Below, one piece after another: positions 2,478 through 7,579 of a stretch of 64,000 nt of DNA. The stretch is from contig NZ_MDFN01000014.1 in the NCBI RefSeq assembly GCF_001730525.1, positions 1 through 64,000 on the forward strand. Direction: 5' to 3'. The position numbers were made by a program, and so were the translations under genes. The notes beneath the pieces were generated by a model. That model saw nothing but the letters and a program-made list of their open reading frames with translations. It made no database searches and was not told where the DNA came from. Positions within the stretch are counted from its first letter, which is position 1. Every line of letters starts with the position of its first letter. This stretch comes from Arcticibacter eurypsychrophilus (lineage in GTDB: Bacteria; Bacteroidota; Bacteroidia; Sphingobacteriales; Sphingobacteriaceae).

Positions 2478-4025
2478 TTAATGCGCGTCTACCGGCATCG
2501 TTACATTTTTATTAAATTTTTGTAAAAACAATAATGGAATGGAACAGAGCAATACAAATCCGACTACCCAATACGTATCTGTATAAGTAAGAAGTAACGA
2601 CTGTTTAATTACATTCCCGTTCATGGCTTTAAGTGCCACGTTTTGTGCATCCAGATTGGAATAGCCCTTCGACATAAAATTATGTACCATTTGATTGAAC
2701 CGTTCTGTAAAAGCTGGATTGTAATTGCTGATATTCTCAATCAGCACATTCCGGTGAAAGCTTTGTCTGATATGGATAAAAGTTGTCAGTGCCGCAATTC
2801 CAAAGGAACCTCCAAGCTGACGCATCATATTATTTAACCCGGTACCTTGTCCTAGTTCTGGCCCTTTAAGATCCTGTATGGCCAGTGTAGTTAGCGGTAC
2901 GAACAGCAGTGACATCCCCAACCCTCGTATTGCCAGAGGCCAGAAGAAATCGGATGTCCCTGATGCGAGCGTTGATTTACTCAGCATATGCGAAAATAAA
3001 AAGAAAAGTAACATGCCACCTGCAGCCATAAACTGGGCCGGTACTTTATTCTTTAACATAATCCCAACAAATGGCATCATGACAATGGTAAATAATCCCC
3101 CAGGAAAAAGTATTTCCCCTGTTTGCTGTGCCGAAAAGCCCAGCAACTGCTGACAGAATATGGGAAATATAAACACCGATCCATATAACCCGAAGCCTAA
3201 AATAAAGGAGGTAATCATCCCTACACTAAAACTTCGGTGCCGCATGATCTTAAAGTTCACAATAGGGTGGTCTGTGCTTTGCTCTCTCCAGATAAATAAC
3301 AGGAGTCCTACAACAGCCGAAACCGACAATATTGTAATGTAACCGGTTGCAAACCAATCTTCACTTTCGCCTTTTTCAAGTACAGTTTGTAAACTGCCCA
3401 CGGCAACCGCCAGTAGACCAATTCCCCACCAGTCGATCGGTTTGTCCTTCCCATCTTTAGGCGTGATCCGTACAAATGTGTACGTACAATAGGCCGCTAT
3501 AATTCCTACAGGTATGTTTACGTAAAAGATCCAGGGCCATGAAAAATGATCTGTGATATACCCTCCGATAGTTGGTCCTACTGTAGGGCCTACCACGGCT
3601 CCCAATCCAAACAAGGCTGTTGCAATACCAACCTCCTCCCTGGGCCAGGTTTCAAGTAATATAGCCTGTGCCGTTGAGATCAGTCCCCCTCCGGCAAGTC
3701 CCTGTAGAATTCTGAAGGCTATTAGTTCATCTAAAGTTTTTGCATTACCACAAAGAAAAGAAGCAATTGTAAAGAGGATAATGGAGGTTAAAAAGTAGTT
3801 TTTCCGTCCGAAACGACTACCCAGCCAACCTGACATAGGCAATATAATTACGTTCGCTACCCCATATCCTGTTGTAACCCAGGCAACATCTTCCAGTGTC
3901 GCACCCAGGTTTCCCTGAATCTGGGGCATGGATACGTTTACAATAGTGGTATCGATTAATTCCAACAGTGAAGCGGTAATGACTGTAATAGTAATTACCC
4001 ACTTCTTTAATCCTACTTCTGCCAT
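2478..4025 (-). CDS. DHA2-family MFS multidrug efflux transporter (EmrB/QacA type)
   Basis: Inner-membrane drug/proton antiporter of the 14-helix DHA2 family. Its 515 aa match EmrB. The N-terminal helix carries the conserved acidic position (LIDTTIVNV), motif A appears as GSRFGRKNYF, and antiporter motif C as GAVVGPTVGPTIGG. It is the last gene of a minus-strand operon TetR-TolC-HlyD-MFS and starts within the stop codon of HlyD (TAATG overlap), so it is translationally coupled. EmrB-type pumps need an HlyD-family adaptor to reach the outer membrane channel. Here the adaptor gene carries an amber stop, so this pump may be impaired unless the stop is suppressed or another adaptor substitutes. 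Confidence 0.92.
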   Translation of the reverse strand: MAEVGLKKWVITITVITASLLELIDTTIVNVSMPQIQGNLGATLEDVAWVTTGYGVANVIILPMSGWLGSRFGRKNYFLTSIILFTIASFLCGNAKTLDELIAFRILQGLAGGGLISTAQAILLETWPREEVGIATALFGLGAVVGPTVGPTIGGYITDHFSWPWIFYVNIPVGIIAAYCTYTFVRITPKDGKDKPIDWWGIGLLAVAVGSLQTVLEKGESEDWFATGYITILSVSAVVGLLLFIWREQSTDHPIVNFKIMRHRSFSVGMITSFILGFGLYGSVFIFPIFCQQLLGFSAQQTGEILFPGGLFTIVMMPFVGIMLKNKVPAQFMAAGGMLLFFLFSHMLSKSTLASGTSDFFWPLAIRGLGMSLLFVPLTTLAIQDLKGPELGQGTGLNNMMRQLGGSFGIAALTTFIHIRQSFHRNVLIENISNYNPAFTERFNQMVHNFMSKGYSNLDAQNVALKAMNGNVIKQSLLLTYTDTYWVVGFVLLCSIPLLFLQKFNKNVTMPVDAH

Positions 4026-5068
4026 TATTTATCGTCTGTGTGTACAGAAACTTTTACACTCATTCCAGGGCGCAATCTCTTCATGAATTGCTCCTCTGTT
4101 TGAATTTTAATTTTAACAGGGATCCGCTGAACAACCTTGACAAAGTTTCCGGTCGCATTATCAGGAGGAAGTAAGGAGAATTTAGCTCCGGTAGCTGGAG
4201 CAAAATTGTAAACCTGTCCTTTTATGATATGATCAGGGAATGCATCCACTTCCACTTCCACATTGGATCCACTTTTAAGATCTTCCATTTGTGTCTCCTT
4301 AAAATTCGCTGTGATATAAATGCTATTATCATTCACGACAGAAAATAAGGTTTGTCCGGCTTGTATAAGTTGTCCGGGTTGGATGCTCTTCTTGGAGATA
4401 ATTCCTGATGCAGGAGCTTTAATTGTGGTATAGGATAACTGCAAATTAGCAAAGTCTACATCTGCCTGTTTCTGATCCACACCAGTATTTGTTACCTGTA
4501 ACTGAGAGCGTGTTGTTCCAACTTGTCCTTGTGCGGCACGATATTGATCTTGTGCAGCCTGGTAGGCGGCTTCTGCGGCTTCTTTTTCTGCTTTTGCTGA
4601 GTCAAATTGTTGTTGGGTTACTGCACCTTCTTTGACCAGGTTGGCATAACGGGTGTAATTTTGACTGGCCCTCTATAGACGTACTTTCGCTGAAACGGCA
4701 TTGGATCGTGCTGTAGCCGAACTAGCTGAAGTCGTATTAATTTGCGATTCTGGTACATCTATACCAGCACGTGCGCCTTTTTGTGCAGCAAGTGCTTGCT
4801 CCAGCTTAATTTGATAATCCCGCTGGTCTAGTTTAACCAATACCTGTCCTTTTTCCACATGTTGATTATCCTCAAAAAGAATTGTGTCTACATAGCCGCC
4901 TACGCGGGATACAACCGGACTGATATCTCCATCCACCTGCGCATCATCTGTATCCACATGGTTTTGCAGATATAGATATTCTCTGATACCAACTATTGCT
5001 CCAATGAGTATAACAACTGCAAGAATAATGGGTACTATTTTAATTGATTTTTTACTGTTCTCTTTCAT
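4025..5068 (-). pseudogene. HlyD/EmrA-type membrane fusion protein interrupted by an in-frame amber codon
   Basis: Periplasmic adaptor of a tripartite efflux pump. The N-terminal part (131 aa, from the ATG at 5068) has one membrane helix (IVPIILAVVILIGAIVGI), then the first half of a biotinyl-lipoyl-like domain and the start of the coiled coil. A TAG at 4673-4675 stops it after ...AKVRL. The same frame then stays open from 4672 to the stop at 4025, reading RASQNYTRYANLVKEGAVT and onward through the second hairpin arm, the lipoyl half (YTTIKAPASGIISKKS) and the beta-barrel. Together the frame encodes about 346 residues, a normal EmrA length. Homologues often have Trp where the stop lies, so TGG to TAG is the simplest change (inference). 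It starts 18 bp after tolC and overlaps the MFS gene by one base. Sequencing error, suppression or restart at Met 4480 cannot be excluded. Confidence 0.88.
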
Positions 5069-5086
5069 TACCGTGATATCGATGTA

Positions 5087-6451
5087 TTATTTTATTAATC
5101 CAGTTGATTTTTGTAAAGTATACCAAGCCAGGCCTTCATCTGCTTTTGCCAGTTCCAGGTTAATCTGTGATTGGAAAAGCTGTGTTTGAGCATCTATTCG
5201 GTCGGTTACAGATGCGATATTATTTCGGTATTTAGATTCCAGAATCCGGTCATTTTCCGAAGCCTGTTCAATAGAATTCTGCAAAATACTAATCCGGGAT
5301 AATGAGCGTGTCAAATTTTGATAATCCCTATTCACCTCTGTTTTAACTAGATCTATAGTAATGTTCCTGGTATTTTCTACTTCTACTTTCTGAATTCTGG
5401 CTTCCGAAATCTTATTCTTATTCGTCCAGAGGCGGTCTATATTCCAGGCAACCGTTGCTCCAATACTTACAGGAGCTAGAAAGGTATTGGCGGGAGGAAT
5501 AAATTTGCCGCTTGGATTGATGTAGTATAGATTAGCTGCGGCACTCAGTGTAGGACTCAAATCAGCCTTAATGGTCTTGATATTCGTTTCCGCCAGTGTA
5601 TTCCGTAGCTCATATTCTTTTATTTCCTCCCTGGAAGCGATTGCCGTATCAATCAGACTAGTTAAGATCAAGTCACTGGAAGAAGGGGTTTTAAACTCAC
5701 TCACTTCCAATTCAGTGTTTTCGGGAAGACCTAAGAGGATATCCAGATTATAATTTACAATCTTTTTGTTCGTTTCCAAATCAACACCGGTAAGCTCAAT
5801 CGTGTTGTGCTGTAACTGGAAGCGTAAAACGTCATTTTTAGTCACTAGCCCCTGACTGAAAAACTGTTGTGCCTGCTTCAGTTGTTGGTCAATCGATTTC
5901 AGGTTCTGCACCACAACCTGTTCACTTTGTTGAACCTTGTACAGGTTATAATAAGAATTAATCACTGCGTAAACCACATTGTCTTCCTCTTGGGTAGCAC
6001 CTAGTTTCGCGATCTCCGTTAAAAGATTAGTGGACTGTTTTGCATACCGCAATTTGTTACCGGCAAAAATAAGTTCCTGTACAGAGACGGTGCCAATAAA
6101 AGCATCCGCTTTGGAAGGCAAATCAAAAGCATTACTATCCGCAGTTCCTGGAAGCGCAAATCGACTGCTTAAAAAGTTTGCGTGACTATAGGTATAACTT
6201 GCAGATGCCTTAGGAAGAGCCTCATCCAGCGTTTGATTGTAGCGTGAAACCGCTTCATCAATCCTGGATTGTGACAGCTTCAGTTGTTTACTGTTTTGTT
6301 TTCCTAGTTCAATTGCTTCTGTAATCGTTATTGCCCTCTTGGTTTGAGCAAAGGATACCTCACTTAAACTGAGAAGTAACAATGCGGTAATAGTAACTCT
6401 TGCATATCCGAGTAGCTTGTTTTGCATAAGGTGATAGATATAGTGATTCAT
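5087..6451 (-). CDS. TolC-family outer membrane efflux protein
   Basis: Outer membrane channel that lets drugs taken up by the inner membrane pump leave the cell. The signal peptide (hydrophobic ITALLLLSLSEVSFAQ) is followed by two repeats of the OEP helical fold, for example ITITEAIELGKQNSKQLKLS near the start and AETNIKTIKADLSPTLSA in the second half. Length (454 aa) fits TolC/OprM proteins of Bacteroidota. The open frame starts at 6451, 2 bp after the tetR stop. A second ATG at 6427 gives a more typical signal peptide and is an equal candidate. It sits between the TetR repressor and the HlyD adaptor gene in one operon. Confidence 0.9.
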   Translation of the reverse strand: MNHYIYHLMQNKLLGYARVTITALLLLSLSEVSFAQTKRAITITEAIELGKQNSKQLKLSQSRIDEAVSRYNQTLDEALPKASASYTYSHANFLSSRFALPGTADSNAFDLPSKADAFIGTVSVQELIFAGNKLRYAKQSTNLLTEIAKLGATQEEDNVVYAVINSYYNLYKVQQSEQVVVQNLKSIDQQLKQAQQFFSQGLVTKNDVLRFQLQHNTIELTGVDLETNKKIVNYNLDILLGLPENTELEVSEFKTPSSSDLILTSLIDTAIASREEIKEYELRNTLAETNIKTIKADLSPTLSAAANLYYINPSGKFIPPANTFLAPVSIGATVAWNIDRLWTNKNKISEARIQKVEVENTRNITIDLVKTEVNRDYQNLTRSLSRISILQNSIEQASENDRILESKYRNNIASVTDRIDAQTQLFQSQINLELAKADEGLAWYTLQKSTGLIK

Positions 6452-6453
6452 GA

Positions 6454-7071
6454 TTATACTTTCAGATGGGCTTCTAATAATGCAGCTAAGTGTTTTTTTA
6501 TTCGGGGTTTAATATCGTTTATAACGACTTCAGGATTGTGCATATCTACATCAAGTAAGGCTGATGTAATATTCTTTAAATGGACCACATAATACATAGA
6601 GCCGAAAATAGTGGCTATGGTCATTTCTGGATCTACTTTCCTGAACACGCCTTCTTTAATCCCTTCTTCTATTATTGATTTGCCAATGTTTATATTCTTC
6701 AAAAGATGGTCAACGATGATGTTTGTCATATCTGACCGTTGCTGTATGGATAACTCATAAGTCATCAGGCGATGAAAACAATTATGCTTCACAATCCGAT
6801 CTGCATATATATCTACATACCGGGTAATTTTTTCCCATGATGAAAATGGACAACTGATAATCTGTAAAAGAGACTCATGAAAACCAGAAAACTTTCGTAC
6901 GAAAACTGCTTTATATAAACCTTCTTTCGAACCGAAATAATAGTTGAGCATAGCCATATTTACACCCGCGTCTTTAGCTATGGCTCTGGTAGATGCTCCA
7001 TCGTATCCGTTCTCCGAAAACAGTCTTTCGGCATGATTTAAAATGATCTCTTTTTTATCTTCTTTTATCAT
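6454..7071 (-). CDS. TetR/AcrR-family transcriptional regulator
   Basis: Likely drug-responsive repressor of its own efflux operon. The N-terminal 60 residues hold a TetR helix-turn-helix: ILNHAERLFSENGYDGAS, then TRAIAKDAGVNMAMLNYYFG and SKEGLYKAVF. The rest is a helical ligand domain with no recognisable specificity. It is the first gene of the tetR-tolC-hlyD-MFS operon, and its start codon lies inside a 48-bp perfect palindrome (7066-7113). The centre of that palindrome (AATCAATCGATTGATT) looks like a TetR operator, so autoregulation is expected (inference). Length 205 aa is usual. Confidence 0.9.
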   Translation of the reverse strand: MIKEDKKEIILNHAERLFSENGYDGASTRAIAKDAGVNMAMLNYYFGSKEGLYKAVFVRKFSGFHESLLQIISCPFSSWEKITRYVDIYADRIVKHNCFHRLMTYELSIQQRSDMTNIIVDHLLKNINIGKSIIEEGIKEGVFRKVDPEMTIATIFGSMYYVVHLKNITSALLDVDMHNPEVVINDIKPRIKKHLAALLEAHLKV

Positions 7072-7113
7072 TGTTACAATTAATCAATCGATTGATTAAT
7101 TGTAACAATGATA
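7066..7113. promoter_or_regulatory. 48-bp perfect palindrome, candidate TetR operator
   Basis: Bases 7066-7089 are the exact reverse complement of 7090-7113, centred on C|G at 7089/7090, with no spacer. The inner core is AATCAATCGATTGATT. The left arm includes the tetR ATG (7069-7071). A TetR dimer normally needs only 15-20 bp, so the outer arms are unexplained. In a transcript starting upstream the start codon would be locked in a stem of more than 20 bp. Confidence 0.85.
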
Positions 7114-7236
7114 TACCCATTTTAATATTTATGACTAAAGGATGATTTTTAAGCAATTGTTTCAACCGCGAATGAGATTGTGTATCAATCTGATAAATTG
7201 TACGCATTAGGATTAAAAAAAAACCTAAATATTTTC

Positions 7237-7244
7237 TATTTTTG
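7237..7244 (+). promoter_or_regulatory. -7 promoter element of the 59-aa membrane protein
   Basis: TATTTTTG matches TAnnTTTG exactly and ends 14 bp before the ATG at 7258. No convincing -33 TTG is seen. Confidence 0.45.
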
Positions 7245-7257
7245 ATAAAAGCATTAT

Positions 7258-7437
7258 ATGGAAAATTCAAAGCAAGAAAATACAAACGGATATTATTTTA
7301 TTATCGCAATGGTTTTTGGCGTATTAACGGGATGGGTGACAACTTCTTCACTCCTTTATGCCTTTTTTGGGGCTATTGTAGGTTTATTATTTGCAGGTCT
7401 GTTTACGAGCGCTTTTGTAAAAGGAAGACATAATTAA
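7258..7437 (+). CDS. Small two-helix membrane protein (59 aa), unknown function
   Basis: A short gene starting MENSKQENTNGYYFIIAMVF and ending KGRHN. It has a polar N-terminus, then two hydrophobic stretches of about 18-20 residues separated by a short turn (GWVTTSS), and a basic C-terminus, as expected for a helical hairpin in the inner membrane. A TATTTTTG -7 element just upstream and sensible base use support it as a real gene. It is divergent from the tetR operon, with the 48-bp palindrome between them, so the TetR protein might control it too (inference). No family is recognised. Confidence 0.7.
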   Translation: MENSKQENTNGYYFIIAMVFGVLTGWVTTSSLLYAFFGAIVGLLFAGLFTSAFVKGRHN

Positions 7438-7579
7438 AAAATAAAGCGTCACGAAAAATATCGCAACGCTCTAACCTAAACCTTATCACAATTAAGCCAA
7501 CAATCACATTGACCTATTACGCAATCAATAACGTTTAATCATTTAAATTGTTATTTAAAAAAGGGAAATAGTCTTTTAA

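Follow-up and report, generated by a model that had tools for sequence, protein, structure and literature searches.

A 48-bp perfect palindrome at the tetR start of an Arcticibacter efflux operon is most likely an ordinary repressor site lengthened by template switching

The gene for a TetR-family regulator in Arcticibacter eurypsychrophilus starts inside an unusually long palindrome, which raises the question of whether the whole of it is an operator, a leader RNA or the product of a mutational event. The gene lies on contig NZ_MDFN01000014.1 (assembly GCF_001730525.1), of which positions 1 to 64,000 were analysed, a stretch of 64,000 nucleotides that we refer to as the window. An earlier note on this DNA had described a 48-bp perfect palindrome covering the TetR start codon, and we confirmed it: two arms of 24 nt each (7066–7089 and 7090–7113) are 100% complementary with no spacer between them, and the tetR ATG (7071–7069, minus strand) falls within.

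7066..7113, no strand: 48-bp perfect palindrome, by self-complementarity of the forward strand
6454..7071, minus strand: tetR, 205 aa, with TetR_N and TetR_C_29 domains, by open reading frame and Pfam
7082..7097, no strand: 16-bp core AATCAATCGATTGATT, predicted TetR operator by its conservation beside tetR (18 bp with the flanking T/A, 7081–7098)

The palindrome is genuine and much longer than chance would give. We scanned 264,000 bases of the genome, namely the window and ten hand-picked, non-random stretches of 20,000 bases, and among the 33 perfect palindromes without spacer of at least 14 bp found there it ranks first in length, the runner-up measuring 20 bp. The probability of 24 paired positions arising by chance is about 9e-15 per position if base composition is taken from the surrounding 11 kb and 1e-12 with intergenic composition, and on these odds together with the genome scan we rejected a chance origin. 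Read as RNA, the palindrome folds at -25.3 kcal/mol (z -9.6). Elsewhere in the same genome we observed further long perfect inverted repeats with arms of 21–23 and loops of 4–16 (L117 10048, L109 5112 and L116 18805), which by their look are terminators or mobile-element ends.

The regulator itself is a clear family member, with both domains scoring above their Pfam cutoffs (PF00440, 58 bits against 24; PF17938, 37.7 bits against 26.2). An assignment to CecR or another named TetR equivalog was rejected, as all 18 of its 18 NCBIfam matches fall below their own cutoffs, and the top PDB match is a distant relative, hemolysin II regulatory protein (E 8.5e-16). The core of the palindrome had already been put forward as a plausible operator, and comparison with relatives bears this out: AATCAATCGATTGATT is likely the TetR operator, the core AATCAATCGNTTGATT or a close variant lying upstream of tetR in 86 of 89 relatives. 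Within the organism's own genome AATCAATCGATTGATT has a single exact match, at tetR, and one more site at one mismatch, so the regulator looks local. Our full-text search of the open-licence literature found no printed report of the core strings.

These counts come from 89 loci that were compared with the window upstream of tetR. Orthologs of tetR were found in 17 of the 60 genomes searched and in 5 of the 6 genus genomes, the organism's own included each time; a second collection contributed the best 80 of its 136 confirmed loci, which weights the 89 relatives to Mucilaginibacter. Among them are 85 distinct upstream 60-mers. The window's own tetR (L001), its own-genome paralogs (L002–L006) and duplicates (L007, L009–L011, L013, L014 and L017) were left out. 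The operator search pattern admits certain variants only, so that part of the core's invariance follows from the search itself, which does not apply to the count of the promoter box given below. The earlier note had named Pedobacter as the genomes to compare; with the second collection entering as its best 80 of 136, the search gave Arcticibacter svalbardensis as the nearest relative with a name.

Of the two outcomes foreseen for this comparison, the full 48 bp or a short core kept, it is the short core only that the relatives keep. The extra length of the palindrome, that is its outer arms, was seen in none of the 89. With one mismatched pair allowed, the arms measure 8–13 bp in 85 of the 86 operator-bearing relatives, 15 bp in the remaining one and 26 in the window, and perfect palindromes upstream of tetR reach at most 28 bp among the 89 relatives. 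Leftward of the core, conservation fades after about 2 bases. On the other side, shortly before tetR, the right edge of the core is overlapped in 86 of 86 operator-bearing relatives by TAnnTTTG, the −7 box of Bacteroidetes promoters, whose consensus is given in PMC6847099, where its six fixed bases are described as near-invariant in Flavobacterium johnsoniae, and also in PMC9723704.

The pattern is absent from three relatives. At L032 both the operator site and TAnnTTTG are absent from the stretch scanned, and no TolC-like neighbour was found. The other two, L021 and L022, have TAnnTTTG next to a variant operator of the same plan in other letters (TTAAACGNTTGTTTAA-like), and their regulators are altered at residues that are near-constant in the remaining relatives (91 rows, including the window's own protein and one duplicate of the sister) and that we take, from the TetR fold, to lie in the recognition helix. 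That operator and helix residues changed together supports, without proving, that TetR reads this operator, and the joint change is possibly a natural specificity switch.

In the stretch that was scanned, a second copy of the operator occurs in 15 of the 89 relatives, 23 bp upstream in one (L015) and 70–76 bp upstream in 14 (L041, L043–L045, L047, L053, L055, L065, L071, L074, L081, L098, L101 and L102), and none of the 15 copies has a −7 box. The spacing of 70–76 bp corresponds to about seven helical turns. Copies at this distance could possibly serve looping or the control of another promoter, and paired operators may matter in some relatives, though not as longer arms. The window has no second copy within 200 bp upstream of the tetR start.

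How the outer arms arose is best approached through A. svalbardensis, whose TetR is 94% identical to that of the window and whose sequence aligns collinearly at 89% identity over 11 kb (9,848 of 11,031 columns). As this lineage comparison consists of one genome of the window's species and one close sister, intermediates are not visible.

7090..7113, minus strand: left arm in the tetR sense, presumed template, 0 of 24 differences from A. svalbardensis
7066..7080, minus strand: outer right arm with the start-codon context, the part that differs from A. svalbardensis (6 of 25 right-arm columns)
7075..7082, minus strand: position of the −7 box, TAnnTTTG in 86 of 86 operator-bearing relatives and TAATTGTA in the window

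One arm is therefore unchanged, and the other has changed toward its complement only: at all six right-arm differences, the one-base length difference included, the window carries the complement of the left arm, although one of the six may belong to the sister. The window's arm is one base shorter than the sister's, and codon 2 reads ATA in the window versus GTA in A. svalbardensis. Two of the differences fall in the box and are derived in the window, since the sister and all 86 operator-bearing relatives have the box. At a third the window has A versus G in the sister, A being the commoner base (77 of 86 relatives); this change may have taken place on the sister's branch instead. The remaining three are left unpolarised by the relatives. 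At least six differences within 16 columns occur in 192 of 11,015 alignment windows and are not rare, so the argument rests on the direction of the changes. The sister has a perfect core of 18 bp, and once a single gap is introduced by hand, 19 of 25 columns of its arms pair, pointing to a quasipalindrome in the ancestor. Outside the core it would have been weak, because the sister's ungapped arms extend over only 12 nt at 92% complementarity and the RNA fold of the stretch does not stand out from shuffled sequence (z -1.2), 26 of 200 shuffles folding as well. When mutations were placed independently on the sister sequence, at roughly the divergence observed and without selection, 400,000 simulated runs gave arms of 15 bp at most, in 2 of them.

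The most likely explanation from this comparison is that an ordinary 16–18-bp repressor site was lengthened by replication template switching in the window's lineage alone. The ancestral locus would have been a TetR autorepression site, with the operator of 16–18 bp overlapping the −7 box of the tetR-tolC-emrA-emrB promoter so that bound TetR would block RNA polymerase; the overlap is seen in the sequences, and we infer the binding and the repression. This operator would have sat within a longer, imperfect and gapped palindrome, in which a polymerase probably switched template once, within the hairpin, and copied the left arm into the right. Such copying would yield the 48-bp perfect palindrome, the replacement of TAnnTTTG by TAATTGTA, the arm shorter by one base and the ATA at codon 2, and would leave the operator core intact, so that TetR can probably still bind. 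The pattern of arm changes can be read directly from the alignment, and template switching is probably the mechanism behind it. For the explanation as a whole, that is a single template switch seeded by the operator, a promoter probably weaker or moved, and an operon that may be losing function, we consider the case good but not secure.

In Escherichia coli, the making of quasipalindromes more perfect by template switching is established (PMC7202029). The locus resembles the mutations in the thyA and lacZ reporters of that source in that an imperfect inverted repeat is perfected by arm-to-arm copying, but differs from those it describes in being inferred from a comparison of species and not caught in the act, and in having as its seed a repressor operator, with a promoter box and start-codon context overwritten. 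Template switching has also been argued to be a source of perfect stems, one event being able to yield a long perfect stem (PMC8794818); a long perfect stem from a single event is the likeness here, but the account in that source concerns RNA genes whose stems are retained, whereas the stem at tetR is probably without RNA function. A search for template-switch mutation in connection with transcription factor binding sites in bacteria found no paper, and among the matches listed no title or opening abstract line described a template-switch event at an operator.

Downstream of tetR and on the same strand lie genes for a TolC-like, an EmrA-like and an EmrB-like protein, in this order.

5087..6451, minus strand: tolC-like gene for an outer membrane efflux protein (Pfam OEP above cutoff; NCBIfam TolC models below cutoff)
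4025..5068, minus strand: emrA-like gene for an adaptor, split by an in-frame stop at 4673–4675 (HlyD_3 above cutoff in the second piece; EmrA model below)
2478..4025, minus strand: emrB-like gene for a DHA2 MFS exporter (TIGR00711, 432 bits, cutoff 230)

TetR-family autorepressors of efflux operons are known as a class, and the locus resembles them in that a palindrome lies across the promoter of its tetR-efflux operon. The TolC-like gene is present at 87 of the 89 relative loci, and at one of the two without it (L095) the sequence ends about 40 bp past the tetR match. In the window, TAATTGTA is TAnnTTTG with two of the six fixed bases lost. At the −33 element, A. svalbardensis has a TTG at spacing 23, and the relatives are without clear consensus columns. 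The 200 bases upstream that we scanned retain two −7-like matches with five of six fixed bases, the nearer one, TATCATTG, at the left edge of the palindrome and the other, TAGGTTTT, about 156 bases up, and both lack a TTG at the spacing scanned. A scan for sigma-70-type promoters found 2 where 3.7 are expected. The promoter of tetR-tolC-emrA-emrB has probably been weakened or moved. Operon expression would then be weaker or shifted, and a designed RNA switch is not what we expect. The stop at 4673–4675 (minus strand) divides emrA into pieces of 131 and 215 codons, where in A. svalbardensis a single frame runs open for 353 codons. Against the sister, dN/dS is 0.061 for tetR, 0.070 for tolC, 0.069 and 0.050 for the two emrA pieces and 0.026 for emrB, comparable to the 0.067 of a neighbour gene; values this low (0.026–0.070) indicate that the operon genes were constrained for most of the divergence, and functional loss, if there is any, must be recent. 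The premature emrA stop fits an operon that may be losing function; the promoter lesion may have preceded the stop or followed it, and each of the two may be specific to this strain.

Other readings of the palindrome differ in what they make of the outer arms. The 48-bp stretch is probably not an operator over its full length. The earlier note had suggested nested operators or a site for cooperative dimers, and a selected extended operator of this kind, built by ordinary mutations for two TetR dimers or for an overlapping second regulator, would account for symmetry that is perfect on both flanks of the core; double sites do exist in the family, which partly favours cooperativity across it. 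However, the second copies in those 15 relatives are sites of their own and do not lengthen the arms, and the window lacks such a copy in the 200 bp scanned. In the relatives the outer left side varies and the right side is the promoter box, and simulated independent mutation never gave arms beyond 15 bp. We rejected this reading on the absence of the outer arms from all 89 relatives and judge it quite improbable. The same absence tells against the RNA switch that had also been proposed, in which a long hairpin in the leader masks the start codon and only short or leaderless transcripts are translated. Here the full palindrome folds stably as RNA with the AUG paired, and the A. svalbardensis transcript, judged from the position of its box, would begin at or beside the ATG. 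Yet with the promoter that the relatives use, transcription would begin within the right arm, and a transcript from TATCATTG, the nearest upstream −7-like match, would form a 10-bp hairpin with the AUG outside the helix, though weakly paired downstream. The switch requires transcription from a point upstream of the entire palindrome, for which TAGGTTTT, further up, is a possible start. On the transcript folding, and with no Rfam match at gathering score in 6900–7450, the leader switch was rejected, and we hold it to be very improbable. That the palindrome comes from a single genome in 93 contigs would allow for a fold-back artefact of assembly or library, but collinear coding sequence resumes after about 16 altered positions, where a fold-back chimera would be expected to stay inverted, and the tetR frame is preserved; an artefact is, to our mind, barely credible.

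A further alternative opposes the consequence proposed above and not the origin by template switching, so that its probability overlaps with that of the whole explanation. The promoter function may have been retained, with another promoter, TATCATTG or an atypical box, driving the operon under altered control. The fit of TATCATTG to five of six fixed −7 positions and an intact tetR with its low dN/dS speak for this possibility, but TATCATTG is also present in A. svalbardensis beside the canonical box, a TTG at the scanned spacing is missing from both five-of-six matches, and emrA carries a stop. We regard retention as a possibility to be held tentatively, with weakening or displacement of the promoter as the preferred outcome of the template switch.

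On the far side of the palindrome lies a divergent gene that it might also control.

7258..7437, plus strand: divergent gene for a 59-aa membrane protein that has homologues in the genus, with its own −7-like box TATTTTTG at 7237–7244

Homologues of this open reading frame are present in 4 of the 4 genus genomes examined, at 50–88% identity, and are absent from all 77 other relative loci, each a few kb long; its Pfam matches are below cutoff, and it has no NCBIfam match. The gene has its own TAnnTTTG match, TATTTTTG, about 120 bp from the palindrome, and for this reason we think control by the palindrome unlikely. Between this gene and the next, at 7442–7473 (minus strand), there is a terminator-like hairpin with a T run, 1 found where 0.4 are expected.

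The conserved arrangement of operator and promoter at this TetR-efflux operon spans Sphingobacteriales and nearby Bacteroidetes, and our full-text search found no report of it. It is conceivable, though we think it rather improbable, that palindromic operators are standing seeds for template switching, by which regulators would silence or rewire their own promoters in one step, and that here an autorepressed, nearly leaderless operon has become silent or hairpin-controlled. At the strength given above, the locus would be a natural example of a striking regulatory palindrome explained by one mutational event of known type, and a warning against taking long perfect palindromes for long operators.
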